Positions 9,445-46,055 of a DNA stretch of 64,000 bases are shown piece by piece. The translations under genes and the position numbers were made by a program. Source of the DNA: Streptomyces sp. NBC_01294 (GTDB taxonomy: Bacteria; Actinomycetota; Actinomycetes; Streptomycetales; Streptomycetaceae). The notes beneath the pieces are model-generated. The model had not been told where the DNA came from. It saw nothing but the letters and a program-made list of their open reading frames with translations, and made no database searches. The stretch is from NCBI RefSeq assembly GCF_035917235.1, contig NZ_CP108423.1:1984001-2048000 (forward strand). The letters run 5' to 3'. The first letter of the stretch is position 1, and each line of letters begins with the position of its first letter.

Positions 9445-9451
9445 GGGCGAG

Positions 9452-9482
9452 ATCCTGGACCTTCCAGCCGCTGGAGACTCAA
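9452..9482 (-). promoter_or_regulatory. MerR-type promoter with 19-bp spacer and operator palindrome
   Basis: On the minus strand: -35 TTGAGT (9482-9477), a 19-bp spacer, and -10 CAGGAT (9457-9452). The spacer contains CTCCAGCGGCTGGAAG, a near-perfect palindrome. The 19-bp spacing is the MerR-regulon hallmark. Only 7 nt separate the -10 from the merR ATG, so the transcript may begin at the start codon. Confidence 0.7.
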
Positions 9483-9967
9483 CCGCCCGGACGCGCGAGC
9501 CGGTGGATCTTGACGTCGAGGGGCTTTCCGCCGCTTGCCGTGGCGGTCATGCAGGTCCACCTGAGCCCGTGAGGACCCGGCACACGACGGGGCTCAGCGA
9601 AGGCACATCCGTACTGGCAACACCACCTGCCTGGATGCACACCCCCAAGAGAATCGCCTGCACGGCTGCGCAGCGCAGGGAAAACAGGAGGCACGCCGGA
9701 CCCTGCCGCTCCGCAGCTCGCAGCCGCTGAGCGCGGCCCATGATCGTATGGGCCGAGAGCCACGTGCAACGCCCGAACTCCCTCAACGGTTCACCGTTGC
9801 TGCCGGAATCCCTGAACTCCGCGCCGAGAATCTCAGGCCCTGCCGCCGCAATCAGCGGCGCTGAAACCCAGCTGATTTTCGTCACGCTCCCGCAAAGCCG
9901 GCACTCGGCAAGTGCGCCTCCCACCCAGCGTGACCTGCACGATCAGCCCAGGTGACGCCCCATCAGA

Positions 9968-10007
9968 ACGAGCGTCATTTGAGCGTCACGAGCGTCATTT
10001 CGGCGTC
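9968..10007. repeat. Two tandem 20-bp repeats
   Basis: ACGAGCGTCATTT followed by 7 bp ending GCGTC occurs at 9968-9987 and again at 9988-10007, with 18 of 20 bases identical. The core AGCGTCA(T/C) recurs every 10 bp, one helical turn, which would suit a regulator binding side by side. Function unknown. Confidence 0.6.
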
Positions 10008-10063
10008 AAGATATCGCCCGTAACGCCCACACCGCACATACTGCGCACCCACGAAACCGCAGG

Positions 10064-11401
10064 TCAGGCGTCCTTCTTCACCGGCTCAAGGATCGCGACG
10101 CACTCCACGTGGTGCGTCATCGGGAAGAGGTCGAAGACGCGCAGGGTGCGGACCTTGTAGCCGTTCTCCTTGAAGTAGCCCAGGTCGCGGGCCAGCGCCG
10201 CCGGGTCGCACGCCACGTACGCGATGCGGCGGGCCGAGAGGCCCGCGATGTGGCGGACCGTCTGCTTGCCGGCGCCCGCGCGGGGCGGGTCCAGGACGAC
10301 CAGGTCGCACTCCGTGATCCCGGTCTTCGGGAGGATCTGCTCGACCTTGCCCTGCTCGATGCGCACCCGCGGGAAGTCCGCCAGGTTGTGCCGGGCGTCC
10401 TCCACCGCGCGCTTCGTCGTCTCGATGCCGAGCACCGCGCCCGTGTCGCCGAGCCGCTCCGCCAGCGCGCCCGCGAAGATGCCGACGCCGCAGTAGAGGT
10501 CGAGGGCCATCTCGCCCTTGCGCGGCATCAGGCCCTGCATGACGGCCTTGATCAGGGTGTCGGCGGCCTGCGGGTGGACCTGCCAGAAGCCGCCCATGCC
10601 CACGCGGTACGTACGGCCGTCCGCGCGCTCGCGCACGAAGGGGCGGCCGTGGACGCGGTGGACTCCGCCGTCCTTCTCCTCGACCCGGAGGACCGAGACC
10701 GGCTTGTCCAGCTCGACGAGCGGGAGGCGGCCGCCGGGGCGGGGGGTGAGGACGACCTGGCGGTCGCCGGAGCCGGTGGCCGCGATGGCCTCCACCGTCT
10801 CCATCTGCGGCCAGTCCTGCTTCTCGATGCCCAGTTCCGAAACACCGGGAGCCGCGATCATGCAGTGGTCGATCGGCTCGATCTCGTGCGAGCGGTGCTT
10901 GCGCAGGCCGACGATGCCGTCCTCGTCGATGGCGAACTGCACGCGGGTGCGCCACTGCGGCACCTGCCCGGCCGGCAGCTTGTCGCCCTCGGCGGGCATC
11001 ACGGTGCCGTCCCAGCCGGCCTCCTCCGGGGTGAGCCCGGCGAGCCGCTTCAGCTGCTCGGCGACGACCTCGCCCTTGAGCCGGCGCTGGGCACCGGGCT
11101 TGGCGTGCTGCCAGTCGCAGCCGCCGCACTTGCCGGGGCCGGCGTACGGGCAGGGGGCCTCGACGCGGTCCTTGGAGGCGTCCAGCACGGTGATCGCGTC
11201 GGCGCGCAGGTAGCGGGAGTCCTCGTCGCCCTCCGTCACACGAGCCACGATCTTCTCGCCGGGCAGCGTGTGGCGGACGAACAGGACCCGCCCGTCGGAC
11301 GTACGGGCGATGCAGTGCCCGCCGTGCGCGACGGGGCCGACCTCGACCTCGTATTCCTCCCCGACCAGTGACTGCTTCTCGTTCTGCTCGGCGCTCGTCA
11401 T
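10064..11401 (-). CDS. TRAM-domain SAM-dependent RNA methyltransferase (RumA/TrmA type)
   Basis: A 445-residue protein of the m5U methyltransferase family that modifies rRNA or tRNA. The N-terminal 70 residues are a TRAM RNA-binding domain (GEEYEVEVGPVAHGGHCIAR). Cysteines in CPYAGPGKCGGCDW suit the RumA-type iron-sulfur site. The Rossmann domain has DLYCGVGIFAG for SAM, DPPRAG, and the catalytic-Cys motif YVACDPAALARD. The length is normal. A GGAG lies 10 nt before the ATG at 11401, immediately downstream of the permease terminator, so it likely has its own promoter or depends on read-through. The target nucleotide cannot be inferred. Confidence 0.92.
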   Translation of the reverse strand: MTSAEQNEKQSLVGEEYEVEVGPVAHGGHCIARTSDGRVLFVRHTLPGEKIVARVTEGDEDSRYLRADAITVLDASKDRVEAPCPYAGPGKCGGCDWQHAKPGAQRRLKGEVVAEQLKRLAGLTPEEAGWDGTVMPAEGDKLPAGQVPQWRTRVQFAIDEDGIVGLRKHRSHEIEPIDHCMIAAPGVSELGIEKQDWPQMETVEAIAATGSGDRQVVLTPRPGGRLPLVELDKPVSVLRVEEKDGGVHRVHGRPFVRERADGRTYRVGMGGFWQVHPQAADTLIKAVMQGLMPRKGEMALDLYCGVGIFAGALAERLGDTGAVLGIETTKRAVEDARHNLADFPRVRIEQGKVEQILPKTGITECDLVVLDPPRAGAGKQTVRHIAGLSARRIAYVACDPAALARDLGYFKENGYKVRTLRVFDLFPMTHHVECVAILEPVKKDA

Positions 11402-11432
11402 GGTGGGGAGACTCCAAAAAACTGAAAAGGAA

Positions 11433-11482
11433 AACGGCCGGACGACCGACCCACCAGTTTACGTGGATCTCGTCCGGCCGTT
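11433..11482 (-). terminator. Rho-independent-type terminator of the APC permease gene
   Basis: Arms AACGGCCGGACGA (11433-11445) and its complement (11470-11482) form a perfect 13-bp stem with a 24-nt loop. Read on the minus strand it is followed by TTTTCC and TTTTTT runs. It sits between the permease stop and the methyltransferase start. Confidence 0.8.
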
Positions 11483-11500
11483 CACCAACCTCTTCGGCTC

Positions 11501-13555
11501 TCAGCCCTTCGCGGAGGGTTCCTTCGGGGGCCGCGGCGTGTCCACCGGTCCGCGGCGCACCGCGCCCGGGGCGTTCCACTCGGCCCGCTTCTTCGCCCGC
11601 TTCTTGGCGAGTTCCGAGGACTCCAGCTGGTAGGGCACCGAGGTGACCATCACGCCGGGCGTGAAGAGCAGCCGGCCCTTGAGCCGCAGCGCGCTCTGGT
11701 TGTGCAGGAGGTGCTCGTACCAGCGGCCGACGACGTACTCCGGGATGTAGACGCTGACCGCGTCGCGCGGGTTCTCGCTGCGCAGGCCCTTGACGTACTC
11801 GACCACCGGGCGGGTGATCTCCCGGTACGGCGAGTCGAGGATCTTGAGCGGGACGTTGATCCCGCGGCGGTCCCACTCGTCTCGCAGCGCCTTGGTCTCG
11901 GCCGCGTCGACGCTGATGCTGAGCGCCTCCAGGGTGTCCGAGCGGGTCAGCTTGGCGAAGGCCAGGGCGCGCAGCGTGGGCTTGTGGACCTTGGAGACCA
12001 GGACGATCGAGTGGACCCGGGAGGGCCGCACGCTGTCGTCGCTGGGGCCCTCGGCGGCGGCGATCTCGGCGGAGACGCGGTCGTAGTGCTTCCGGATCGC
12101 GCTCATCGTGCCGTAGAAGATCAGCATGCCGAGCAGGGCCACCCAGGCGCCGTGGGTGAACTTGGTGGCGAGGACGACGACCAGCACCATGCCGGTGAAG
12201 AAGGCGCCGAAGGTGTTGATGGCCCGGGAGCGGTACATCCGCCGGCGGGCCGCGACGTCACGCTCCGTCTTCAGGTGGCGGTTCCAGTGCCGGACCATGC
12301 CGATCTGGCTCAGGGTGAAGGAGACGAACACGCCGACGATGTAGAGCTGGATCAGCTTGGTCGAGTCCGCGTCGTAGATCCAGACGAGCAGTATGGCGGC
12401 GCCCGCGAGCAGCACGATGCCGTTGGAGAAGGCGAGCCGGTCGCCGCGCGTGTGCAGCTGGCGCGGGAGGTAACGGTCCTGCGCGAGGATCGAGCCGAGC
12501 AGCGGGAAGCCGTTGTACGCGGTGTTCGCGGCCAGGAACAGCACCAGTGCGGTGGCCGCGGCCAGCAGGATGAAGAGGAAGCTGCCGGCGCCGAAGACGG
12601 CCTCGGCCACCTGCGAGATCACCGGGTCCTGGACGTACTCGGGGCCGACCGGGACGCCGTTCGACAGCAGGTCCTCGGCCGGGTTCTCGGCCATCCGCAC
12701 GTCGCTGGCCATGGCCAGGCCGATGATCCCGCAGAACATGGTGACCGCCAGGCCGCCCATGTAGGCGAGGGTGGTCGCGGCGTTCCTGCTCTTGGGCTTG
12801 CGGAAGGCGGGTACGCCGTTGCTGATCGCCTCGACGCCCGTCAGGGCCGCACAGCCGGAGGAGAAGGCGCGCAGCAGCAGGAAGACCATGGCGAAGCCGG
12901 CCAGGCCCTGCTGCTCGGGTTTGATCTCCAGGTCGGCGGTCGGCGCCGTCATCGTCTCGTCGAGGACGAGGCCCTTCCAGGCACCCCAGGCGATCATGAC
13001 GAAGACGGCGGCGACGAACACATACGTCGGGATCGCGAAGAGCTTGCCGGACTCCTTCACTCCGCGCAGGTTCATCAGCGTGAGAAGAAGGATCATGACG
13101 ATCGCCGAGAGCACCTTGTGCTCGATGACGAAATGCACGGCGGCGCCGAGGTTCTCGACTCCGGAGGAGATCGAGACGGCGACGGTCAGGACGTAGTCGA
13201 CGAGCAGGGCGCTCGCCACGGTCAGGCCGGCCCTGGGTCCGAGGTTGGTGTTGGCCACCTCGTAGTCGCCGCCACCGCTCGGGTAGGCGTGGACGTTCTG
13301 GCGGTAGGACGCGACGACGGTGAACATCAGCACGACGACCGCGAGGGCGATCCACGGGCTGTACTGGTACGCCGACACGCCCGCGATCGACAGGACCAGC
13401 AGAACCTCACCGGGGGCGTACGCCACGGAGGAGAGCGGATCGGACGCGAAGACGGGAAGCGCGATCCGCTTGGGAAGGAGGGTTTCACCGAGGCGGTCGC
13501 TGCGTAGCGCCCGGCCGATCAGGATCCGTTTGGGCACGTCGGTCAGTTTGGACAC
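11501..13555 (-). CDS. APC-superfamily permease, KimA-like potassium transporter
   Basis: A 684-residue protein with 12 predicted helices in the first 480 residues and a cytosolic domain of about 200 residues. Motifs include PVFASDPLSSVAYAPGE early and YPSGGGDYEVAN in the third helix region, both typical of the KimA/YdaO branch of APC carriers. KimA of Bacillus is a high-affinity K+/H+ importer. A potassium role here is supported by the divergent pair of TrkA proteins and the KdpDE genes nearby. The GTG start at 13555 has no Shine-Dalgarno sequence; a -10-like TACGAT lies 7 nt upstream, so translation may be leaderless. A strong terminator follows the gene. Confidence 0.82.
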   Translation of the reverse strand: MSKLTDVPKRILIGRALRSDRLGETLLPKRIALPVFASDPLSSVAYAPGEVLLVLSIAGVSAYQYSPWIALAVVVLMFTVVASYRQNVHAYPSGGGDYEVANTNLGPRAGLTVASALLVDYVLTVAVSISSGVENLGAAVHFVIEHKVLSAIVMILLLTLMNLRGVKESGKLFAIPTYVFVAAVFVMIAWGAWKGLVLDETMTAPTADLEIKPEQQGLAGFAMVFLLLRAFSSGCAALTGVEAISNGVPAFRKPKSRNAATTLAYMGGLAVTMFCGIIGLAMASDVRMAENPAEDLLSNGVPVGPEYVQDPVISQVAEAVFGAGSFLFILLAAATALVLFLAANTAYNGFPLLGSILAQDRYLPRQLHTRGDRLAFSNGIVLLAGAAILLVWIYDADSTKLIQLYIVGVFVSFTLSQIGMVRHWNRHLKTERDVAARRRMYRSRAINTFGAFFTGMVLVVVLATKFTHGAWVALLGMLIFYGTMSAIRKHYDRVSAEIAAAEGPSDDSVRPSRVHSIVLVSKVHKPTLRALAFAKLTRSDTLEALSISVDAAETKALRDEWDRRGINVPLKILDSPYREITRPVVEYVKGLRSENPRDAVSVYIPEYVVGRWYEHLLHNQSALRLKGRLLFTPGVMVTSVPYQLESSELAKKRAKKRAEWNAPGAVRRGPVDTPRPPKEPSAKG

Positions 13556-34699: not shown

Positions 34700-34875
34700 G
34701 CCGGCCATCTTCCTCCCCGCCCGCAACCCTCGTAACAAGGCCGTCATCGGCGGGGCGCACCGATCCGGTCAACTCCGCCCCGGGCCCCCGCGATGCGGCC
34801 CGGTCGGGGCGCGCCGAGTCCCCGGGAGTGGAAGCATCAGCACCGGTAAGCGGCACGACGGAGGAGACGGCTGAC

Positions 34876-35661
34876 ATGACCGAGGCAGCGGAAGCAACCC
34901 GGCGCACGCCCGGCACCCCGTGCTGGGTGAGCCTCATGGTGCACGGCCTCGGGACCACCGAGGACTTCTACGCCGACCTGTTCGGCTGGGAGTACGTACC
35001 CGGCCCCGAGCAGCTCGGCCCGTACGTCCGCGCCGTGCTGGACGGCCACGAGGTGGCGGGCATCGGCGAGATGCCGCCGGACCGGCATCTTCCGGTGGCC
35101 TGGACGACGTACCTCGCCACCGACGACGCCGACGCGACCGCCGAGGCGGTCCGCAGCTGCGGCGGCACGGTCGCGGTGGGGCCGCTGGACGCCGGCATCG
35201 CGGGGCGGGTGGCGATCTGCTCCGACCCGCTGGGCGCCATCTTCGGGCTGTGGCAGGCGCAGACCCGCATGGGCACCCGGCTGCACACCGGGCCGGGCAC
35301 CCCCGTCTGGAACGAGCTGGTCACCCAGGACACCTCGACGGTCGGCAAGTTCTACGAGCACGTCTTCGGCCACGAGGCGAAGACGCACTCCACGGCCTCC
35401 GACGACTTCGACTACCTGACCCTCCAGTTGGAGGGCCGCCCGGTGGCCGCCGTGCACGGCGTCGGCCGCTCGCTGCCGCACGACCGCGGGCCGCACTGGA
35501 TGGCGTACTTCGAGGTGGAGGACACCGACGCGGCCGCGGCCCGGGTGGTCCGGCTCGGCGGCCGCGTCGTCGACCCGCCCCGCGAGGGCCTGCGCGGGCG
35601 GCAGGCCACGGTCGCGGACCCGGAGGGCGCGGTCTTCGCCCTCGTACGGTCACGGCCCTGA
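34876..35661 (+). CDS. Two-module VOC-family protein
   Basis: 261 residues with two tandem glyoxalase-like modules: the first from CWVSLMVHGLGTTEDFYADLFGWEY to DPLGAIFGLWQAQ, the second from VWNELVTQDTSTVGKFYEHVFGHEA to DPEGAVFALVRS. This is the size and layout of actinobacterial VOC proteins sometimes called hydroxylase-like. GGAGGAG lies before ATG 34876. The function could be metal-dependent catalysis or ligand binding; no substrate can be named. It converges on the MFS exporter gene. Confidence 0.88.
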   Translation: MTEAAEATRRTPGTPCWVSLMVHGLGTTEDFYADLFGWEYVPGPEQLGPYVRAVLDGHEVAGIGEMPPDRHLPVAWTTYLATDDADATAEAVRSCGGTVAVGPLDAGIAGRVAICSDPLGAIFGLWQAQTRMGTRLHTGPGTPVWNELVTQDTSTVGKFYEHVFGHEAKTHSTASDDFDYLTLQLEGRPVAAVHGVGRSLPHDRGPHWMAYFEVEDTDAAAARVVRLGGRVVDPPREGLRGRQATVADPEGAVFALVRSRP

Positions 35662-35705: not shown

Positions 35706-36983
35706 TCAGTCCGTCCTCGGCTCCGGCGTCCGGCCGAAGTGGCGGGCGGTGGGCACCAGTGCGGCCGCGGCGGGGACGAGGAAGCAGGCCGCGGCGCACA
35801 CGGCGAGCACCGGGGTGACGCCGAAGGTGCCGATGGCCGGGGCGATCAGGGCCAGGCCGACCGGGGCGAGGCCGTAGGACACGAGGAAGTCCAGGGAGGA
35901 GACGCGGGCCAGCTTGTCCGGGGCCACCTCGCGCTGGGTGGCCGTGAACCAGGGCACGTTGAACAGCTCGATCCCGATCCCGGCGACGACGTAGGCGGCG
36001 ATCACCACGGCCGGGTGGACCGGCAGCATCAGGCTCAGCGGTGCGACGCCGTACACGGCCAGTCCGGCGAAGGCGGTCCAGCCCTGGGAGCGGGGCCGCC
36101 ACCGGGCCGTGACCAGGGCCCCGCCGAGCGCGCCCACGGTGTAGGCCGTCACGGCCGCGGCCAGGACCCACTCCGTGCCGTAGCGGTCGCGGCTGATCAG
36201 GGGCAGGGCGACGCTGGTGGCGGAGTAGCCGAGCGCGATCACGGCGGCCAGCGCGCCGAGTCCGGCGACGAACCAGGGGTGGCGGCGCGCCTCGCGTATC
36301 CCGTCGATGAACTCGGCCCGGAATGACGCGCGCGGCGTGCGCTCGGTGGAGGGCGCGGGGGCGGCAGAGGGCGCGGGGGCGGCGCCGCGGCCCGGCAGGA
36401 GGGCGGCGACCAGCCAGAGCAGGCCGATCCCCAGCAGCAGCGTCCCGACGTCGACGAAGGCCGCCAGCAGCGCGGTCAGGGCGGGTCCGGCCAGGGTGGA
36501 GGTCCGTACCGCGAGGGTCATGGCGGCATTGGCCTGCTGCCGGCGGCCGGCGTCGACGACCTCCGCGGTGAGTGCCTGGAAGGCGGGGCGGCAGGCTCCC
36601 TGGCCGGCTCCGGCGAGCGCGGCGGCCAGGGTCATCAGCACCAGTGACCGGCCGAGGCCGATGGCGAGGAGGGGCGCGGCGACCGCGGCCGCGAGGGCGG
36701 ACCAGAGCACGACGGCCCGGCGGGAGTGACGGTCGGCCAGTACCCCGCCGACGGCGACGGCGGCGAGGAAGCCCGCGGTGCGCGCCGCGAGGACCAGGCC
36801 CAGTCCGGCCGCGCCGAGTTCGCGGTGCAGGACCGCGAGGCCGAGGACGAAGGGGAGCGCCCAGGTCGCGAGGCCGGAGGCGGTGGTGCCCGCCCACAGG
36901 CGCAGGAAGGCGATGTCGCGCAGGACGGAACGCGCGGGCGGCGGGCCGGTCTTGGGTGATGCGGGCGCAGGTGTGGTCGCCAC
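35706..36983 (-). CDS. MFS exporter, EntS-like
   Basis: 425 residues, 12 predicted helices, starting at GTG 36983 behind GAGGAGC. The opening RSVLRDIAFLRLWAGTTASGLATWALPF and motif A GGVLADRHSRRAVVLW resemble the enterobactin-exporter branch of MFS. FNVPWFTATQREVAPDKLARVSSLD, seen after helix 10, is conserved there. It is divergent from a metal-receptor operon across a 196-bp gap containing a Zur-like box, so it could export the metallophore inferred for that operon. Substrate identity is an inference from context only. Confidence 0.8.
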   Translation of the reverse strand: MATTPAPASPKTGPPPARSVLRDIAFLRLWAGTTASGLATWALPFVLGLAVLHRELGAAGLGLVLAARTAGFLAAVAVGGVLADRHSRRAVVLWSALAAAVAAPLLAIGLGRSLVLMTLAAALAGAGQGACRPAFQALTAEVVDAGRRQQANAAMTLAVRTSTLAGPALTALLAAFVDVGTLLLGIGLLWLVAALLPGRGAAPAPSAAPAPSTERTPRASFRAEFIDGIREARRHPWFVAGLGALAAVIALGYSATSVALPLISRDRYGTEWVLAAAVTAYTVGALGGALVTARWRPRSQGWTAFAGLAVYGVAPLSLMLPVHPAVVIAAYVVAGIGIELFNVPWFTATQREVAPDKLARVSSLDFLVSYGLAPVGLALIAPAIGTFGVTPVLAVCAAACFLVPAAAALVPTARHFGRTPEPRTD

Positions 36984-37056
36984 GGTGTGGTGCTCCTCAT
37001 GGGTCGGCAGGTGGTGCCGGGGCGGGGCTCGTCGAACCACACCCCGGGGGTGTTAA

Positions 37057-37071
37057 TGAAAACGATAACCA
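37057..37071. promoter_or_regulatory. Zur-like box
   Basis: TGAAAACGATAACCA matches 10 of 15 positions of the actinobacterial Zur consensus TGAAAATCATTTTCA and is flanked by TAATG...CATTA arms (37054-37074). It overlaps a -10-like TACAGT (37073-37078) for the rightward operon and lies 74 bp upstream of the MFS start. Confidence 0.55.
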
Positions 37072-37179
37072 TTACAGTACTCTTCGAACGCGGCACTCCC
37101 GCCCGGTGCACGACCACACCCACGCCTCCCCACGCCTCCCCACGCCTCCCCGCCCCTCCCTTCCCAGACCGGAGAACCC

Positions 37180-38217
37180 ATGCGCCACCGCGCCCGACTC
37201 GGCATCGCCCTCACCCTCGTCCTCGCGACCGCGGCCTGCTCGACCGCCACCAACGCCCCCGCGACGACCGGCAAACCCGCCGCCGAAGCCGCCGGCGCGA
37301 AGGCCGCCCCCCTCGCCAGCTGCGGCCGGCAGCTCTCCTTCGACCGGTCCCCGGAGCGCGCCGTCGCCCTGGACCAGACCTCGACCGAGACCCTGCTGGA
37401 ACTGGGGCTCCAGGACCGGATGGCCGGGACCGCCAACCTGAAGACGAAGATCCCGGCCCAGTACCAGGACGCGTACGCCAAGGTCCCGGTCATCGCCCCC
37501 AAGATCGCCACCGGCGAGCAACTGCGCTCCGCCACACCCGACTTCGTGGTGGCCGGCTCCGCCGACCTCTACACCGCGGACCGGGCGGGCACCCGCGAGG
37601 AACTGGACGCCCTCAAGGTCCCCACCTTCGTCAGCGCCGTGGACTGCCCGGAGCAGAACGAGGCCGGAAAGAGCCCCTTCGAACTGCTCTTCTCCGACTA
37701 CGAGCAGCTGGGCAAGGTCTTCGGCAGCGAGGAGCGGGCCGCGAAGCTCGCCCGGGAACAGCGCGCCGCCGTGGCCAAGGCCGGTGAGAGCGCCGCCGCC
37801 CGGGCCGCCCAGGGCGGCAAGCAGCCCACCGTCGTCTACCTCTACTCCGTCTTCAACGGCATGCCGTACGTGGCGGGAGGGACCGGGCTGCCCAGCGAGA
37901 TGAGCCGGATCGTCGGCGCGAGGAACGCCTTCGACGACGTGAAGGAGGACTGGCCGGAGGTGTCCTGGGAGGAAGTGGCCAAGCGCAACCCGGACTTCAT
38001 CGTGATCGGCGACCTGTCCGAGCGCGGCCGGCCCGGCGACAGCGCCGGCGAGAAGCGGGCCACGATGGCCGGGGACCCGGTGGTCTCCAAGCTCGCGGCG
38101 GTGCGCGACAACAAGATCATCGAAGTGCCGGGCATCGAACTGGACCCCTCCGTGCGCTCCGTGCACGCGCTGGGCCTGCTGGCGGCCGGGATGAAGGACC
38201 TCGGGTATGTCCGCTGA
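37180..38217 (+). CDS. FecB/BtuF-type metal-chelate receptor lipoprotein
   Basis: 345 residues. The signal peptide ends at Cys20 (LATAAC), so it is probably lipid-anchored. The mature domain has the cluster-A9 helical-backbone pattern: RAVALDQTSTETLLELGLQDRMAGTAN, PDFVVAG, VVYLYSVFNGMPYVAGGTGLPSEMSRIVGARNAFDD, and a C-terminal NKIIEVPGIELDPSVRS. Such receptors bind chelated iron, zinc, cobalamin or haem. It is first in an overlapping operon, 109 bp after the Zur-like box. A leader repeat (CCTCCCCACG x3 near 37127-37160) lies between. Its 3' end overlaps the permease gene by 11 bp. Confidence 0.88.
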   Translation: MRHRARLGIALTLVLATAACSTATNAPATTGKPAAEAAGAKAAPLASCGRQLSFDRSPERAVALDQTSTETLLELGLQDRMAGTANLKTKIPAQYQDAYAKVPVIAPKIATGEQLRSATPDFVVAGSADLYTADRAGTREELDALKVPTFVSAVDCPEQNEAGKSPFELLFSDYEQLGKVFGSEERAAKLAREQRAAVAKAGESAAARAAQGGKQPTVVYLYSVFNGMPYVAGGTGLPSEMSRIVGARNAFDDVKEDWPEVSWEEVAKRNPDFIVIGDLSERGRPGDSAGEKRATMAGDPVVSKLAAVRDNKIIEVPGIELDPSVRSVHALGLLAAGMKDLGYVR

Positions 38218-39430
38218 CCCGGTGGGCCGACCGGGACCGGTGGACCTCGCGGTGGATCCGGCGGCGGGCCGGGTGACGGACCGTGCGCCGGCCCCGGCTG
38301 CAGACCGTGCGCCGGAGCGGCCGCCGGCCCCGCCGGTGGACCTGCTGCATCCGGCGGCCCGTGGGACGGCGGTGACGGAGCCGGTCAACGCGCCGTCCCC
38401 GCTGCCCCGGGCCGCCCGGTCCGGCACCGTCCGGGCGGGGGTGTTCCTCGCCGGGGCGCTCGTCCTGGCCGCATCGGTGGCGGCCGGCACGCGCATCGGA
38501 ACCGCCGACGTGGGATGGACCGACCTCGCCCGGGTGTTCGGGACCCGGCTGGGCCTCGGCGCCGAGCCGCTGCCGCCGCTGGTGGACTCGCTCGTCTGGG
38601 ACCTGCGCCTGCCGCGGGTCCTGATGGCGGCCCTGGTCGGTGCCTCGCTCGCGGTCTGCGGCACCGTGCTCCAGGCCGTCACCCGCAACGCGCTCGCCGA
38701 CCCGTACCTGCTCGGGGTGTCGTCGGGCGCCTCCACCGGAGCCGTCGCCGTGGTCGTCCTCGGCGTGGGCGCCGACACCCTCGGGGTCACCGGCGGCGCC
38801 CTCGTCGGCGCCCTGCTCTCCTTCGGCCTGCTGCTGGCGCTGCTGCGCCGGACGGGCCTGGACTCGGTCCGCATCGTCCTGACGGGCGTGGTCGTCGGGC
38901 AGCTCTTCACCGCCCTGACCTCACTCGTCCTGATGGCCTCGGCGGACGCCGACACCACCCGCGCCCTGACCCACTGGCTGCTGGGCTCGATGGCCCCGGC
39001 ACGCTGGGAGGCCGTCGTGGTCTGCGCGATCGTCATGCCGCTCGGGCTGGCGGCCGCCTGGCTGTGCGCGGGCGCCCTCGACGGCCTGGCGTTCGGCGCG
39101 GACACCGCCGCCTCCCTGGGGATCGGCGTACGGCGCACCCGGATGGTGCTGCTCGTGGTGACGGCGGTGCTGACCTCGGTGGCGGTGGCCACGGTCGGCG
39201 CCATCGGGTTCGTCGGACTGATCGTCCCGCACGGGGTGCGCTTCCTCGTCGGACCGCTGCACCGGGTGCTCCTGCCCTGCGCGGCGCTCGCGGGCGCGGT
39301 GTTCCTGGTGTGGACCGACGCCCTGGCGCGGGTCGCCTTCGCCCCGCGGGAGGTGCCGGTCGGCGTGATCACCGCGCTGCTCGGCGTACCGCTGTTCCTT
39401 CTCGTCCTGCGCAGGAGGGGTGAGCTGTGA
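38207..39430 (+). CDS. FecCD-family ABC permease
   Basis: 407 residues. A Pro/Ala-rich cytosolic N-terminus of about 70 residues is unusually long. The FecCD domain follows: LRLPRVLMAALVGASLAVCGTVLQAVTRNALADPYLLGVSSGASTG (the family's most conserved stretch), about ten helices, and the coupling loop GAIGFVGLIVPH. It forms the dimeric membrane channel for the receptor at 37180. A later in-frame start after the Pro-rich stretch is possible, but the ATG at 38207 gives the overlap typical of this operon. The GTGA junction with the ATPase follows. Confidence 0.88.
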   Translation: MSADPVGRPGPVDLAVDPAAGRVTDRAPAPAADRAPERPPAPPVDLLHPAARGTAVTEPVNAPSPLPRAARSGTVRAGVFLAGALVLAASVAAGTRIGTADVGWTDLARVFGTRLGLGAEPLPPLVDSLVWDLRLPRVLMAALVGASLAVCGTVLQAVTRNALADPYLLGVSSGASTGAVAVVVLGVGADTLGVTGGALVGALLSFGLLLALLRRTGLDSVRIVLTGVVVGQLFTALTSLVLMASADADTTRALTHWLLGSMAPARWEAVVVCAIVMPLGLAAAWLCAGALDGLAFGADTAASLGIGVRRTRMVLLVVTAVLTSVAVATVGAIGFVGLIVPHGVRFLVGPLHRVLLPCAALAGAVFLVWTDALARVAFAPREVPVGVITALLGVPLFLLVLRRRGEL

Positions 39431-40314
39431 GGATCGCCGCCGAAGGGCTGACCTGGTCGGCCTCCGGCACGCCCGTCGTCCGCGGGGTCGACCTGGACGT
39501 GGCGTCCGGCGAGACGGTCGGCCTGCTCGGCCCCAACGGCTCGGGCAAGTCCTCGCTGCTGCGCTGCCTGGCCGGGCTGCGCGTGCCCGACACGGGCACG
39601 GTGCACTACGACGGGGTGCCCGTACGGGACTTGAGCGCCCGCCGGATCGCCCGCCGGGTCGCCTTCGTCGAGCAGGACTCCGGGCTCGACGCCGACCTGC
39701 GCGTCGCCGACGTCGTCGGGCTGGGGCGGACCCCCTTCCGCGACCGCTGGCGCGGTCCGGACGCCACCGACCGGGCGGTCGTCGCCGCCGCGCTGGAGCG
39801 CGTCGGCCTCACCGGGCTCGCCGGGCGCTCGTGGAAGGGCCTGTCGGGCGGCGAGCGGCAGCGCGCCCACATCGCCCGCGCCCTCGCCCAGCAACCGTAC
39901 GGGCTGCTCCTGGACGAGCCCACCAACCACCTGGACGTCAAGCACCAGTTGGAGCTGATGGAGCTGCTCGCGGGCGCCGACCAGACGGTCCTGGTCGCCC
40001 TGCACGACCTCACGCTGGCCGCCCGCTACTGCGACCGGCTGCTGCTCATGCACCGCGGGCGCCTGGTGGCCTCCGGCACCCCGGCCGCCGTACTGACGCC
40101 CGCACACCTCGCCCGGATCTTCGAGGTGGACGCCGAACTGGCCACGGACGCCCTGGGCCGGCCCGCGGTCGCCTTCCACGGTCCCCTCCGCTCGCCCGTC
40201 CCCGACCCCCTCGGCCCACCCGACCCCCTCGGCCCACCCGCCCCGCTCGACCCACCTGACCCGCTCGACTCGCTCGTGCCCGCACCACCCGCTCTCCGAC
40301 AAGGATCCTCATGA
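39427..40314 (+). CDS. ABC transporter ATPase for metal-chelate uptake
   Basis: 295 residues. Walker A GPNGSGKSS, Q-loop VAFVEQDSG, signature LSGGERQRAHIARAL, Walker B LLLDEPTNHLD and switch His VALHDL are all intact. This is the FecE/BtuD-like partner of the FecCD permease. The last 45 residues are a Pro-rich repeat (PDPLGPP type) encoded by imperfect 21-bp units (40196-40260) and are not part of the normal fold. The GTG start overlaps the permease stop, and its own stop overlaps the next ATG. Confidence 0.92.
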   Translation: MRIAAEGLTWSASGTPVVRGVDLDVASGETVGLLGPNGSGKSSLLRCLAGLRVPDTGTVHYDGVPVRDLSARRIARRVAFVEQDSGLDADLRVADVVGLGRTPFRDRWRGPDATDRAVVAAALERVGLTGLAGRSWKGLSGGERQRAHIARALAQQPYGLLLDEPTNHLDVKHQLELMELLAGADQTVLVALHDLTLAARYCDRLLLMHRGRLVASGTPAAVLTPAHLARIFEVDAELATDALGRPAVAFHGPLRSPVPDPLGPPDPLGPPAPLDPPDPLDSLVPAPPALRQGSS

Positions 40315-41144
40315 CGACCCGGACCGCCACCCCGCCCGCACCGACCGTCGACGCCCTCGTCACGGCCGTCCTGGCCGGTGAACACGGCCCCCTGCCCTCC
40401 GCCCTCGTGGCGACCAGCGTGTTCTGGATCCACCACGGCACCCGGCTGGCCGGCGGCGACACCACCTACCTCAACCAGTACGTCCTGGTGCGCCTCGGCG
40501 ACTCCTTCGGCGGCTGCGCCTTCGAGGCCGGGGAGATCGACCCGGCGATCTGCCGCGACTCCTCGGGCACCCCGCTCGACGTCCTGCTGCGCGAGGCCCC
40601 GCGCCCGCTGCGGATCGCCGCCCTCGACGCGTACCTGGCCGGGCAGCGCCCGCACCGCGACGCCGGAGCGGAACCGGTCACCCTGCCCGCCGGCACCCCC
40701 GAAGTGCGCGCGAGGGCCCGCGACGCGGCGATCGCCGGATTGCTGGACATCGACCCCGGCGCCAAGGTCGGCCTGATCGGCGTGGTCAACCCGCTGGTCG
40801 CGGCGATCCGCGAGCGGGGCGGCGAACCGCTGCCCTGCGACTTCAACCTCAAGGCCACCCAGTGGGGCGATCCCGTCACCACCGACATGCACGAGGTGCT
40901 GGAGCGCGCCGACGCCGTCGTCGCCACCGGCATGACCCTCAGCAACGGCTCCTTCGACACCATCCTCGACCGCTGCCGCGGCCGGGGCATCCCGCTGGTC
41001 GTCTACGCGCAGACCGGCAGCGCGGTCGCCCGGGCCTTCCTCGGATCCGGGGTGACCGCCGTGTCCGCGGAGCCCTTCCCCTTCTCCCAGTTCAGCGCCG
41101 ACCCGACCACCCTGTACCGCTACCGGGCGGTGGGGCGGCCGTGA
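40311..41144 (+). CDS. DUF364-like (putative heavy-metal chelation) protein
   Basis: 277 residues with no signal peptide. The N-terminal region of about 110 residues (FWIHHGTRLAGGDTTYLNQY, FGGCAFEAGEIDPAICRD) precedes a Rossmann-like half: VGLIGVVNPLVAAIRERGG, ERADAVVATGMTLSNGSFDTIL and VVYAQTGSAVARAFLGSGVTAVS. The second half resembles DUF364, a structural-genomics family labelled as possible heavy-metal chelation; the first may be its usual DUF4213-like partner. I do not know its reaction. Its ATGA overlap with the ATPase and GTGA overlap with the kinase tie it to the metal operon. Confidence 0.6.
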   Translation: MTTRTATPPAPTVDALVTAVLAGEHGPLPSALVATSVFWIHHGTRLAGGDTTYLNQYVLVRLGDSFGGCAFEAGEIDPAICRDSSGTPLDVLLREAPRPLRIAALDAYLAGQRPHRDAGAEPVTLPAGTPEVRARARDAAIAGLLDIDPGAKVGLIGVVNPLVAAIRERGGEPLPCDFNLKATQWGDPVTTDMHEVLERADAVVATGMTLSNGSFDTILDRCRGRGIPLVVYAQTGSAVARAFLGSGVTAVSAEPFPFSQFSADPTTLYRYRAVGRP

Positions 41145-42301
41145 TCCCGGCCGCCCGCCGGGCCGTGCCCGGCGCCGACCGCCGCGGCGCCGCGCACCGC
41201 GGCGCCGGGCACGCCTCCTGCCACCACGGCGAGATCCTGCAGGGCGTCTTCCTCGACGCCGCCGGGCGCCGGTGCGCCGGCCTGGTCACCCTGCCGATGA
41301 CCGGGCCGGGCAGCCGGGCCGAGTTCACCCGCCGCCCCGGCACACCTCCGGAGCAGCTCACCGTCCGGCCGGGCGACCGTACGAAGGCCGCGCGCGCGGC
41401 GGTCCTGGCCGTCGAGGAGTGCGCGCGGCGGCGCCGGGAGGCGCCCTGCGGCGGGGAGTTGCGGATCAGCGGCGACATCCCGGTGGGCCTGGGCATGGGC
41501 AGCTCCACCAGCGACGTCATCGCCGTGGTGCGCGCGGTCGCGGACTCCTACGGGGTGCTGCTGTCGCCCGACGCCGTCGCCCGGCTGGCGGTGCGCGCCG
41601 AGCTCGCCTGCGACCCGCTGATGCTCGACGCGCGCCCGGTGCTCTTCGCCCAGCGCGAGGGGCGGGTGCTGGAGGTCCTCGGCCGCCGCCTGCCGCCCCT
41701 CGTCGTCGTGGGCTGCGCGCTCGGCGGGGGCGCTCCCGTGGACACCCTCGCCCTGCCGGCCCGGGTGCACGACGACACCGACGTACGCGCCTTCGAGCGG
41801 CTGCGCACCCTGCTGCGGCGGGCCGTGGCCACGGGGGACGCCGCCCTGCTCGGCGAGGTCGCGACGGCCAGCGCCCGGCGCGGGCAACAGGTCCTGCGCC
41901 ACCCGGAGTTCGACACCCTGGCCGACATCGCCCGGCGACTCGGGGCCGTGGGCGTGCAGATCGCGCACAGCGGGGCGGTGGCCGGCCTGCTCCTGGACCC
42001 GGCGGCCCCCGGCCTGCGCCGCCGGGTCCGGAGCTGCGTACGGGCCCTGGAGAGCAACGGCATCGCCGCGACCCGCACCTTCACGACCTTTCCCACCTCC
42101 CCCACCTCAGCCGCCTCCCCGTCCACCCCCATCTCACCCACCTCACCCACCTCACCCACCTCACCCACCTCACCCACCTCACCGTCCTCCCCCACCTTCC
42201 CGACGACCAAGGAGTTCCCGAGTGGACCAGCACATCGCGGAGGCCATCGGCCGACCGGACCTGATACGCCTCGACGACCGGCTCATCTGCCTGCGCTTTG
42301 A
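41141..42301 (+). CDS. GHMP-type amino-acid kinase, PduX (L-threonine kinase)-like, with repeat tail
   Basis: 386 residues from GTG 41141. The signature CHHGEILQGVF and the ATP-binding GHMP motif PVGLGMGSSTSDVIAV match PduX-type L-threonine kinases, which make O-phospho-L-threonine. The fold ends near residue 305; a low-complexity tail of about 78 residues follows (Thr-Ser-Pro units from a 9-bp repeat). That frame runs 80 bp into the next gene, so the ancestral stop was probably lost. Next to a PLP enzyme of the SbnA type, a role supplying a phospho-amino acid is likely. A cobalamin-linker role, PduX's classical job, is the alternative. Confidence 0.75.
   Translation: MIPAARRAVPGADRRGAAHRGAGHASCHHGEILQGVFLDAAGRRCAGLVTLPMTGPGSRAEFTRRPGTPPEQLTVRPGDRTKAARAAVLAVEECARRRREAPCGGELRISGDIPVGLGMGSSTSDVIAVVRAVADSYGVLLSPDAVARLAVRAELACDPLMLDARPVLFAQREGRVLEVLGRRLPPLVVVGCALGGGAPVDTLALPARVHDDTDVRAFERLRTLLRRAVATGDAALLGEVATASARRGQQVLRHPEFDTLADIARRLGAVGVQIAHSGAVAGLLLDPAAPGLRRRVRSCVRALESNGIAATRTFTTFPTSPTSAASPSTPISPTSPTSPTSPTSPTSPSSPTFPTTKEFPSGPAHRGGHRPTGPDTPRRPAHLPAL
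42133..42177. repeat. Five perfect copies of CTCACCCAC
   Basis: 9-bp units at 42133, 42142, 42151, 42160 and 42169, with degenerate copies on both sides. They encode Ser-Pro-Thr in the kinase tail and end 45 bp before the PLP-enzyme start. Slippage would change the tail by three residues per unit without shifting frame. Confidence 0.85.
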
Positions 42302-43238
42302 GACCATGAAGGTCGTCTCCGCCCTCGCCGCGGTGCGCCACCTGCTCGACACCGGGGTGGTGCGGCGCGGGGACACCCTGCTCGACAGCTCCAGCGGGAT
42401 CTACGCGTACGCCCTGGCCCTGGCCTGCCACCGCCACGGGATGCGCTGCCACATCGTCGGCTCGACGACGGTCGACCACGCCCTGCGCACCCAACTCGCC
42501 GTCCTCGGGGCGACGCTGGAACAGATGGAGCCGTGCAGCGACCTGAAGCTGGACCAGAAGCGGCGGGTCGAGCGCATCCATGAGATCCTCGCCGAGCACC
42601 CCGAGTACCACTGGATGCGCCAGTACCACGACGACATCCACTACCTGGGCTACCGGGCCGTGACCGACCTGATCCGTGACGCGACGGGCGGGGACGAACT
42701 CACCGTCGTCGGCGGCGTCGGATCGGGCGCCTCCACCGGAGCCCTCGCCCGCTACCTCCGGGAGGACTCACCCGGCGTCGAACTCGTCGGCGTCCAGCCC
42801 TTCGGCAGCGTCACCTTCGGTGCCGAGCACGTCGCCGACCCCGAGATCATCATCGCCGGGATCGGGAGCTCCATCCCCTTCGACAACGTCGGCCACGCGG
42901 CGTACGACACCCTCCACTGGATCTCCTTCGACGCCGCCCTCGCCGGCAGCGTCGACCTGCTGCGACGGCACGCGGTGTTCGCCGGCCTGTCCACCGGGGC
43001 CGGCTACCTCGCCGCCCGCTGGGAGCGGTCCCGGTCCCCGCACCGGACGGTCCTCTTCATCGCCGCCGACACCGGCCACCGCTACGTGGACACGGTGTAC
43101 GCCCGCCACCGCGAGGCGGTCGCCGTCGACGAGCTGGGCCCGCACACGGTGACCAGCCAGGCCGAACTCGCCCTCCCCTGGTCCCGGATGCAGTGGAACC
43201 GGTCCCCCGCGCACTCCACCGGCCCGGTCCGGCCCTGA
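42222..43238 (+). CDS. Fold-type II PLP enzyme, SbnA/cysteine-synthase-like
   Basis: 338 residues. PLP Lys30 sits in ETMKVVSAL; the substrate loop is DSSSGIYAYALA and the phosphate-binding Gly loop VGSGASTGA. The overall order is that of cysteine synthase and SbnA, which joins O-phosphoserine to glutamate on the way to 2,3-diaminopropionate in staphyloferrin B. No CBS regulatory domain is present. GTG 42222 follows AAGGAG and lies inside the kinase frame. With the adjacent kinase it could use an O-phospho-amino acid for beta-replacement. It ends the operon, 37 bp from the convergent kinase-MFS gene. Confidence 0.78.
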   Translation: MDQHIAEAIGRPDLIRLDDRLICLRFETMKVVSALAAVRHLLDTGVVRRGDTLLDSSSGIYAYALALACHRHGMRCHIVGSTTVDHALRTQLAVLGATLEQMEPCSDLKLDQKRRVERIHEILAEHPEYHWMRQYHDDIHYLGYRAVTDLIRDATGGDELTVVGGVGSGASTGALARYLREDSPGVELVGVQPFGSVTFGAEHVADPEIIIAGIGSSIPFDNVGHAAYDTLHWISFDAALAGSVDLLRRHAVFAGLSTGAGYLAARWERSRSPHRTVLFIAADTGHRYVDTVYARHREAVAVDELGPHTVTSQAELALPWSRMQWNRSPAHSTGPVRP

Positions 43239-43275: not shown

Positions 43276-45834
43276 TCACCGGGCCGGCGTGGGCACCGCC
43301 GGTACGTCGCGCCGGGCCGCCCCGGCGGTGATCATCAGGCCGGCGGACAGGGCCGCGAGCAGCGTGGCGCCGACCGTCCACCAGAGGGTGTCGGTGTAGC
43401 CGCCCAGCAGGTCATCGGTGATCGACTCGGACGGCAGGTACCCCTCGCCGACGCGGGCCGCGATGACGGCACCGAGCAGCGCCCCGCCGACCGCTCCGCC
43501 CAGCTCCTGGCCGGCGGTGACGGTCGCCGAGGTCCCTCCGGAGAGCTGCGGGGCGGCGGCGGCGGTCGCGGTGGCGAAGAGCGGCGTGAAGGCCAGGCCG
43601 ATGCCGGAGCCGATGAGGAGCATGCCGGGCAGCACATGGGTCGTGTAGGCGCCGCCCACTTCGAGGAAGGACAGGAGCAGGTGCCCGAGAGCCGCGAGCA
43701 GCAGGCCCGGCACGATCAGGACGCGGGGCGGGACCAGGTGCAGCAGGCGGCCGGAGACCTGGGCGCAGACGACGGCGGCGGCGGCCATGGGCAGGAACGC
43801 CGCCCCGGCGGTGGCCGGGGAGAGGTCGAGCACGCTCTGCGCGTAGAAATCCACCGACGGGAGGGAGGTGACCGTGCCGACGCCGACCAGGAACAGGGCG
43901 AGGACGCAGCCGATGCGGTTGCGGTCCTTGACGAAGGACGGGGACAGGAACGAGCTCGACGCCCTGGTCTGCCCCCACAGGAAGGCCCCGAGCAGGAGGA
44001 CGCCCACGGTGATCAGGCCGAGGTCCCGGGGGGTCCACCCGTGCTGCCCGACCTCGCCGAGGCCGTAGGTGAGGGCGAGGGATCCGCCGGTGCCGAACAG
44101 CACCGCGGGCAGGTCGAGGCGGGCCCCGGTGCGGCCCGGCCGGTCGTGCAGCAGGGTGAGCGCGCCGATCAGGGCGATCACGGCGAGGGGGAGGCCCGCG
44201 TACATGCACCACCTCCAGGCCGCGCTCTCCAGCAGCCATCCGCCCGTGGCCATGCCGAGGGCCGGGCCGCCGGCCGCGATCGCCCCGTAGATCGCGAAGG
44301 CCTTGCCGCGTTCCCTCGGGTCGGGGAAGCCGGTGGCGACCAGGGCCAGCGCGGACGGCGTCAGCAGCGCGGCGAAGACGCCCTGCAGGACGCGGGCGCA
44401 GACCAGCATGGTGGGGTTGGCGGCCGAGCCGCCGATCGCCGAGGCCGCCGCGCATCCGACGAGACCGATGATCAATGCGGTCCTGCGCCCCAGCAGATCG
44501 GCGAGGTGCCCGCCGAGCAGCAACAGGCCGCCGAAGGTGAGCAGATAGGCGTTGAAGATCAGCGTCATGTCGCCGGCGGGAAGGCCCAGGTCCTGCTGGG
44601 CGAACGGGACGGCCAGGGTGAAGGCCGTCGCGTCGAGCAGCACCATCAGCTGCGCCAAGGCGATCACCGCGAGGCCCCACCAGCGTCGGGGGTGCGCGGG
44701 CTCCGCGTCCTGGAGGCCGGGGGCCGGGGGCCGGGCCGCGGACCAGGCGCCGGGGAGCGGGGCGGGCGGCGGTCCGAAGCCCTGCGCGGGGCCGAAGTGC
44801 GCGGCCGGGGCCGTCGGGGCGTACCCGGGCGGCGGGAGCAGCGGCCGGGGCCCGGCGGACGGAGAACGGGGGTCGGGCTGCGCGGCGGGTGTCCCGGTGG
44901 AGGCCTCGGTCTCGGTGGGGGTCTCGGTGGGGTTCTCGGGCGCGTAGTCCAGCAACCGGGCTGCATGGCGGCCCAGTTGGGCCAGGACCGCGCCCGGCAG
45001 CCATTCCGCCGCCTGGTCCTTCGCCGTGAACGCGGCCACCTGCCGGGGCGTGGGCCTCTTGGCCGGATCCTTGTCCAGGCAGGCGCGTACGAGATCGAGC
45101 AGGATCTCCGGCACTCCGGTCAGGTCCGGCTCCTCCTCGGCGACGCGGAAGAGGTGGGCGTTCAGGCCGGTGTCCCCGGCGCCGAAGAGCAGGCGCCCGG
45201 TGGCGGCGTAGACGAGGACGGCACCCAGGCAGAAGACGTCGCTGGCGGGGGTGAGTTCAAGGCCGCGGACCTGCTCCGGCGACATGAAGCCGGCCGAGCC
45301 GATGAGCATGCCGGTGCGGGTGTGCATGCTGTCCCCGGCGAGGCTGTCCATCGCCCGCGCGATGCCGAAGTCGATGACGCGCGGGCCGTCGACGGTGACG
45401 AGGACGTTGGACGGCTTGAGGTCGCGATGGATCAGCCCCGCCTCGTGCACGGCCTGCAGGGCGAGTGCGAGGCGGTTGGCGAGCGTGTGGACCGAGTGCT
45501 CGGGCAACGGCCCGAAGTCCTTGGCGACCACGGCGTGCAGGTCGGGCCCCGGTATGTACCGGGTCGCCACCCAGGGCACGGCGGCCTCGGGATCCGCATC
45601 GAGCACGGCCGCCGTCCAACTCCCGTCCACCCGCCGCGCAGCGGCCACTTCGCGGGCGAAGCGCTTGCGGAAATCGGGGTTCCCCGCGTACTCGGCCTGT
45701 ACGACCTTCACCGCGACGGTCCGCCCGCCCTCGGAACGGCCGAGGTAGACCAAACCCATCCCTCCGGCCCCCAGTCGGGCGATCAGACGGTACGGGCCTA
45801 TGCGGGGCGGGTCTTCGGCGATCAGCTGGTCCAC
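43276..45834 (-). CDS. Ser/Thr protein kinase fused to a 14-helix MFS transporter
   Basis: 852 residues in one uninterrupted frame. Residues 10-275 are a Hanks-type kinase: glycine loop LGAGGMGLVYLG, Lys43 in VAVKVV, HRDLKPSN (Asp138), DFG (155-157) and SPEQ. A Pro/Ala linker (about 290-390) leads to a DHA2-like MFS domain: WWGLAVIALAQLMVLLDAT, motif A GGHLADLLGRRTALI, the ARVLQGVFAALLTPSALALV helix and about 14 helices in all. There are no PASTA repeats. The GTG at 45834 (VDQLIAEDPPRIGPYRL) fits kinase starts; an upstream GTG at 45921 is possible. The fusion suggests phospho-control of efflux, or transport-linked signalling. The substrate is unknown. Confidence 0.88.
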   Translation of the reverse strand: MDQLIAEDPPRIGPYRLIARLGAGGMGLVYLGRSEGGRTVAVKVVQAEYAGNPDFRKRFAREVAAARRVDGSWTAAVLDADPEAAVPWVATRYIPGPDLHAVVAKDFGPLPEHSVHTLANRLALALQAVHEAGLIHRDLKPSNVLVTVDGPRVIDFGIARAMDSLAGDSMHTRTGMLIGSAGFMSPEQVRGLELTPASDVFCLGAVLVYAATGRLLFGAGDTGLNAHLFRVAEEEPDLTGVPEILLDLVRACLDKDPAKRPTPRQVAAFTAKDQAAEWLPGAVLAQLGRHAARLLDYAPENPTETPTETEASTGTPAAQPDPRSPSAGPRPLLPPPGYAPTAPAAHFGPAQGFGPPPAPLPGAWSAARPPAPGLQDAEPAHPRRWWGLAVIALAQLMVLLDATAFTLAVPFAQQDLGLPAGDMTLIFNAYLLTFGGLLLLGGHLADLLGRRTALIIGLVGCAAASAIGGSAANPTMLVCARVLQGVFAALLTPSALALVATGFPDPRERGKAFAIYGAIAAGGPALGMATGGWLLESAAWRWCMYAGLPLAVIALIGALTLLHDRPGRTGARLDLPAVLFGTGGSLALTYGLGEVGQHGWTPRDLGLITVGVLLLGAFLWGQTRASSSFLSPSFVKDRNRIGCVLALFLVGVGTVTSLPSVDFYAQSVLDLSPATAGAAFLPMAAAAVVCAQVSGRLLHLVPPRVLIVPGLLLAALGHLLLSFLEVGGAYTTHVLPGMLLIGSGIGLAFTPLFATATAAAAPQLSGGTSATVTAGQELGGAVGGALLGAVIAARVGEGYLPSESITDDLLGGYTDTLWWTVGATLLAALSAGLMITAGAARRDVPAVPTPAR

Positions 45835-46055
45835 GCGAGGAGGATATTTCAACTGTCCAACGGCAGTGGGCCCATCGGTCGAATCGGAAGCCCAAGGCCA
45901 CCGCCCCGGCGCCTTCCCCACCTCCTGCAGTCACGGCGGACCGCCTCCGGAGCAGTCGTGTCTTCCCCCGGGTGTGTCCGAACGGGCATGCCGCCAGGCC
46001 GGTTCGGCGGGGTAGGCAGGTGTACGTCCCGCCGTATCCCCCGAGAGGCACACCC

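Follow-up and report, generated by a model that had tools for sequence, protein, structure and literature searches.

Zincophores made under Zur control, without a nonribosomal peptide synthetase (NRPS) or an NRPS-independent siderophore (NIS) synthetase, are already known. The described case is ethylenediaminedisuccinate (EDDS) of Amycolatopsis japonicum, and passages of three papers on its aes system report these properties (PMC4993170, PMC6103462, PMC9252823). Aspergillomarasmine synthase condenses O-phosphoserine with L-aspartate to give products that chelate metals and, according to passages of its description, frees no diamino acid such as 2,3-diaminopropionate (PMC12751119). Here we describe a locus of Streptomyces sp. 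NBC_01294 that shares features with both. It lies in a 64,000-nucleotide stretch of an 8.5-Mb genome (C1:1984001-2048000), which we call the window. We read it, with a probability of about two in three, as a zinc-acquisition (zincophore) locus, in which a kinase and a pyridoxal phosphate (PLP) enzyme resembling SbnA would make an amino acid conjugate, a major facilitator superfamily (MFS) protein would export it, and a FecBCD importer would take it back. The gene content, its conserved synteny and a Zur-like box, all read from the DNA sequence, carry this reading.

The initial annotation described six tightly overlapping genes, and the open reading frames (ORFs), coordinates and Pfam matches agree with it; all six are confirmed at 37180..43238 on the plus strand. 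A divergent MFS gene and a Zur-like box, both missing from that annotation, complete the picture, and we count the MFS gene (35706-36983) as a probable part of the locus. The features are as follows.

35706..36983, minus strand: MFS transporter, transcribed divergently from the operon and a candidate exporter (Pfam MFS_1, 107.7 bits)
37054..37074, no strand assigned: Zur-like palindrome TAATGAAAACGATAACCATTA, in the gap that separates MFS gene and receptor gene
37180..38217, plus strand: ATP-binding cassette (ABC) metal-chelate receptor of the periplasmic-binding-protein type (Pfam Peripla_BP_2, 108 bits)
38207..39430, plus strand: FecCD-type ABC permease (Pfam FecCD, 288.2 bits)
39427..40314, plus strand: ABC ATPase (Pfam ABC_tran, 118.7 bits)
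40311..41144, plus strand: DUF364 protein, a candidate for an enzyme that makes the chelator or releases the metal
41141..42301, plus strand: GHMP small-molecule kinase, candidate L-threonine or L-serine kinase (Pfam GHMP_kinases_N, 50.4 bits; GHMP_kinases_C, 25.6 bits)
42222..43238, plus strand: PLP-dependent beta-replacement enzyme, SbnA-like (Pfam PALP; TIGR03945, the SbnA model, 132.3 bits)

All five junctions within the operon overlap. The overlaps measure 11 nt between receptor and permease (taking the ATG at 38207 among several possible starts of the permease gene), then 4, 4 and 4 nt, and finally 80 nt between the kinase and PLP genes. This last overlap (42222-42301) is read in different frames and is annotated likewise in the S. 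melanogenes locus, and the kinase tail that it encodes is alike in several relatives. On the other side, the MFS gene starts at a GTG at 36983 with GAGGAG just ahead of it, as judged by inspection, and the 196 nt that separate it from the receptor gene contain TAATGAAAACGATAACCATTA. The MFS protein also gives a weak match to the EntS model (29.4 bits, cut-off 324). The statement that no NRPS or NIS synthetase is present holds inside the window, where neither the Condensation nor the IucA_IucC profile finds a match; the nearest matches in the genome are at C1:1902662 and C1:2123044, respectively. Among the locus genes, Pfam annotation reveals no ATP-grasp enzyme, and no SbnB-like gene was recognised among those annotated, although no search aimed at SbnB was made.

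The likeness to [S,S]-EDDS, drawn from its description, lies in Zur control, predicted for the window locus, the lack of NRPS and NIS enzymes, and the aminopolycarboxylate-type chelator that would be expected from the window locus. The analogy with EDDS made in the initial annotation is supported. To our knowledge, the aes route includes no GHMP kinase or DUF364 protein. The synthase for aspergillomarasmine A and toxin A, again likened by description, shares a cysteine-synthase-like PLP enzyme and uncleaved chelating conjugates with our proposal but is fungal; we know of no kinase, DUF364 protein, FecBCD importer or Zur in that route. Staphyloferrin B synthesis by SbnA, SbnB and SbnI offers an SbnA-like PLP enzyme and a parallel for the dedicated amino acid kinase proposed here. 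It differs from the window locus, which lacks a NIS synthetase and a recognised SbnB-like gene and has a GHMP kinase and a Zur-like box. SbnI is a kinase of another kind than the GHMP family.

Regulation by zinc is suggested by the box between the divergent genes. The Zur motif of S. coelicolor is given as tGaNNatSatNNtCa, with a 21-bp actinobacterial form taaTGaNAANNNTTNtCANta, in passages of a paper that also name znuA and zitB as Zur targets, zitB being activated by Zur (PMC5472717). We searched the NBC_01294 genome with the pattern ATGRNAAYSRTTNYCATT at up to 2 mismatches, written after sight of the window site and of its relatives. The search returned 18 rows, corresponding to 11 distinct places, against 3 rows for the reversed-pattern control. 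The window box has 1 mismatch on both strands and is one of the two closest matches genome-wide; the other place comes as close on one strand only. Two adjacent places lie at the start of znuA (Pfam ZnuA, 275.4 bits), and one lies upstream of a gene for a CDF-family exporter (Pfam Cation_efflux, 138.4 bits). In S. coelicolor, genes of both kinds are known to be Zur targets.

The box is conserved among relatives of the locus. We defined close DUF364 genes by E <= 1e-100 and assembled 72 loci, of which 70 are regions around such genes (one per genome, window excluded, with a second copy in genome G261 left out) and two come from named plasmids. A box was called at a score of at least 20 of 26, a threshold set after a first scan. 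It occurs in 66/72 loci, and 62 of these 66 boxes are intergenic by a simple ORF caller; the reversed-motif control gives 0/72, and 0 in every other set too. The loci without a box are L022 and L173, whose contigs are cut short, and L160, L161, L164 and L172, all of the type III architecture described below. A box is also present in 6/7 loci with a more distant DUF364 gene. It is found in 0/12 PLP loci without DUF364 and 0/26 loci combining kinase, PLP, ATP-grasp and lyase genes (together 0/38). The presence of DUF364 is uninformative in most loci because they were found by DUF364, and we therefore note the 19 loci found by the PLP gene alone, in which a box accompanies 6/7 with DUF364 and 0/12 without. 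Families f17 and f4 show the same pattern, as do plasmids of S. melanogenes, Tsukamurella tyrosinosolvens and Streptomyces sp. SGAir0924, the last not counted among the 72. The compact metallophore locus of the initial annotation is supported, and the box and its conservation add zinc as the likely metal. The shared promoter would then be controlled by Zur, with zinc-loaded Zur as the predicted repressor.

Close DUF364 genes are present in 56/295 genomes of the same genus (own genome included) and occur in other actinobacterial families as well. Any DUF364 relative at E 1e-20 is found in 122/295 of the same-genus genomes and PLP relatives at E 1e-60 in 96/295. A class-wide sample has DUF364 relatives at E 1e-12 in 26/345 genomes and 7/126 genera. 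Counting co-occurrence across genomes, as the initial annotation suggested, places a PLP gene within 8 kb of DUF364 in 68/70 loci (a contig end truncates each of the two misses, L145 and L173), an MFS gene of the kinds queried in 69/70, a kinase in 58/70, all three FecBCD parts in 53/70, and a small methyltransferase-like gene in 28/70. This grouping is not chance. Among matches with a species name, the best come from Streptomyces plasmids; the PLP enzyme on the S. melanogenes plasmid is 87% identical to that of the window.

Four architectures can be distinguished. In type I, that of the window, the box separates the MFS gene from a divergent receptor-permease-ATPase-DUF364-kinase-PLP operon. 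In a sub-form, DUF364 is preceded by a methyltransferase-like gene and the FecBCD genes form a set apart, which in some cases has a box of its own; three loci of this sub-form (L157, L158 and L194) have no kinase. Type II (10 loci, including the cut L173) has the kinase gene divergent across the box from PLP-DUF364-MFS-FecBCD. Type III (8 loci) reads methyltransferase-like-PLP-DUF364-MFS, with no kinase found, and in one such locus, L160, a gene for a PhyH-type dioxygenase (6673-7452) lies between PLP and DUF364. Type IV, inspected in 7 loci, has a box followed by ATP-grasp-DUF364-PLP-enolase-MFS. L176-L180, L201 and L202 carry a second boxed cluster (box in 6/7) with ATP-grasp, distant DUF364, PLP, enolase-superfamily and MFS genes; by eye, L176 and L180 have methyltransferase-like and Dpp-like transporter genes as well. 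Close PLP relatives also occur in L027-L032 and L244 beside an ATP-grasp enzyme of the L-amino-acid-ligase type, often with a methyltransferase and in some cases FecBCD; no DUF364 gene and neither a Zur-like nor an iron box were found in these loci.

The pairing of a kinase with an SbnA-like PLP enzyme, put forward in the initial annotation, is borne out: TIGR03945 is the best NCBIfam match of the PLP enzyme (132.3 bits, below the cut-off of 349.95), and the best match of the PLP family profile among PDB sequences is SbnA (5d87/5d84). Lys30 and a VGxxGSG-type loop are conserved, and Lys30 and Tyr135 (equivalent to SbnA Tyr152) are invariant across 41 PLP sequences (alignment A4). For the kinase, labelled PduX-like in the initial annotation, the family matches in Pfam and NCBIfam are general GHMP ones and include no PduX model. 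Its identity to the L204, L206 and L208 kinases is 44-49% (alignment A3), and it groups with them in a tree (SH-aLRT 98), apart from the type II kinases. The DUF364 protein passes the gathering score of PF04016 and its fold agrees with DUF364; it is 14% identical to the DUF364 protein Dhaf4260 (3l5o). DUF364 genes frequently adjoin ABC transporters, according to passages on the family (PMC2954201).

The kinase relatives place the pair in a wider context. In L204, L206 and L208, kinase and PLP genes are neighbours, and two of the three loci also have ATP-grasp and argininosuccinate-lyase genes; all four genes are present in 26/26 of the loci L209-L234. We take loci of this kind to resemble the 2,3-diaminobutyrate module of friulimicin- and pacidamycin/mureidomycin-type clusters. 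In this module threonine is phosphorylated and coupled to aspartate, and a lyase then frees 2,3-diaminobutyrate. For mureidomycin, a beta-replacement on threonine is mentioned in a passage of PMC3179956. The window locus has a homologous kinase and a homologous PLP enzyme, but no lyase homologue was found in it and no ATP-grasp gene among its annotated genes, and its PLP enzyme falls in another clade. The likeness runs through L204, L206 and L208, the characterised clusters being compared by the roles of their enzymes. A tblastn search with the L208 lyase (E 1e-4) gave no match in the window or the DUF364 loci, and within the searched set its matches are confined to L036-L038. In L204, on plasmid pMLb of Mesorhizobium japonicum, the kinase and PLP genes (8920-12257) stand between a transketolase gene and one annotated as threonine synthase.

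Taken together, these data suggest the following pathway. Zinc starvation would lift Zur repression at the shared promoter. The GHMP kinase would then phosphorylate L-threonine or L-serine; its kinship with the kinases of L204, L206 and L208 leans towards threonine, while loci with no kinase nearby (12/70, one cut) could be fed O-phosphoserine by primary metabolism, a point in favour of serine. The SbnA-like enzyme would replace the phosphate with another amino acid, joined through its amine and most likely L-aspartate or L-glutamate. With no lyase found and aspergillomarasmine as a precedent, the uncleaved conjugate, bearing three carboxylates and two amines, is predicted to be the zinc chelator or its core, and DUF364 perhaps finishes it. 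The MFS protein, its direction judged from context, would export the chelator, and the receptor/FecCD/ATPase importer would bring its zinc complex back in, a stage at which DUF364 might, alternatively, release the zinc.

Several points weigh against this reading. Besides the late choice of box threshold, the locus counts are not independent, since they come from related loci and some sampled genomes may reappear among the named plasmids, and the rank of the window site is partly circular because the search pattern postdates sight of it. No obvious zinc gene stands at 5 of the 8 places examined among the 10 other matches to ATGRNAAYSRTTNYCATT. Within the window alone, the number of matches to a 15-bp Zur-type pattern (up to 2 mismatches) does not reach significance: 5 were found against 1.63 expected, and 3/100 shuffles gave as many. 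In the PLP family SbnA Ser185 is replaced by Gly167, although Tyr152 is kept, and a fold comparison of the PLP enzyme ties SbnA and cysteine-synthase structures. Finally, no kinase is found near DUF364 in 12/70 loci, one of them cut by a contig end.

Four other explanations were weighed. The locus might supply free 2,3-diaminopropionate or 2,3-diaminobutyrate to a synthetase encoded elsewhere, as its homology to the ATP-grasp/lyase clusters and the NRPS and NIS genes elsewhere in the genome would allow. We think this improbable: the MFS gene, importer and Zur-like box fit a finished product. The search for argininosuccinate lyase turned up no homologue, and none of the annotated locus genes was recognised as SbnB-like; a free diamino acid, as the diamino-acid chelator of the initial annotation would be, is therefore an unlikely product and the uncleaved conjugate the more likely one. 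It is about equally doubtful that the enzymes degrade or open a foreign zinc chelate brought in by piracy or salvage. Importer genes lead the operon, and the habit of DUF364 genes to sit beside ABC transporters fits such a role. A kinase with a beta-replacement enzyme points instead to synthesis. Also against it, an MFS gene is near DUF364 in 69/70 loci and, in the window, diverges from the same box. In L160 and L163, moreover, PLP-DUF364-MFS is retained and no FecBCD set turned up within 8 kb.

A siderophore or broad-metal system is less probable again. The importer is of the FecCD type and the annotation of the S. melanogenes homologue reads iron transporter permease, but no DmdR1-type iron box was found in the window, which has the Zur-like box instead, and iron boxes in the 72 loci do not rise above background (best 13/19 matches, with up to 15 in the reversed control). 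Least probable is corrinoid salvage, with the kinase making L-threonine phosphate for cobalamin and the importer taking up corrinoids. FecBCD and BtuFCD share families, and the BtuF, BtuC and BtuD models match below their cut-offs. The initial annotation had named a response to cobalamin alone as the sign of such a role; the 64-kb window has no Rfam match at the gathering threshold, and thus no cobalamin riboswitch, which together with the missing iron box leaves this alternative weak. The PLP enzyme and MFS protein would have no evident place in it, and the Zur-like box is present.

Two AfsK-related genes flank the locus. A single ORF at 43276-45921 (minus strand) joins a Ser/Thr kinase domain like that of AfsK to a DHA2-type MFS transporter (AfsK, 289 bits at residues 30-351; EmrB at 419-823; both below cut-offs), and a gene at 34828-35661 (plus strand) encodes a protein like KbpA, the AfsK-binding protein (160 bits against a cut-off of 250). 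Separately, the 8.23-Mb contig G000:C1 gives equal-score matches at mirrored end positions, for example 529352/7696890 and 542673/7683075, which suggests that it ends in terminal inverted repeats roughly half a megabase long.

The initial annotation held the combination to be undescribed. This stands for the full set of kinase/PLP pair, DUF364, MFS, FecBCD and Zur box, for which we found no description in the open-licence literature, nor any paper there linking DUF364 to a metallophore. It does not stand for the kinase/PLP pairing, which is not new, since homologous pairs occur in clusters resembling the diaminobutyrate module. The genome-mining software antiSMASH has a class for aminopolycarboxylic-acid metallophores. 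Clusters of that class are reported in Corynebacterium striatum in passages of PMC10486106, and part of the window-type locus family may already be flagged by such software classes. We put at somewhat below even the chance that these loci form an undescribed class of zincophore systems, in which the kinase and SbnA-like enzyme make the conjugate directly and DUF364 forms the chelator or opens the chelate. If so, this would be the first function for the orphan family DUF364, and a testable one, as well as a metal-linked role for a GHMP amino acid kinase and possibly a new biodegradable chelator similar to EDDS. The locus type may be a common route of zinc scavenging that synthetase-based genome mining has overlooked.

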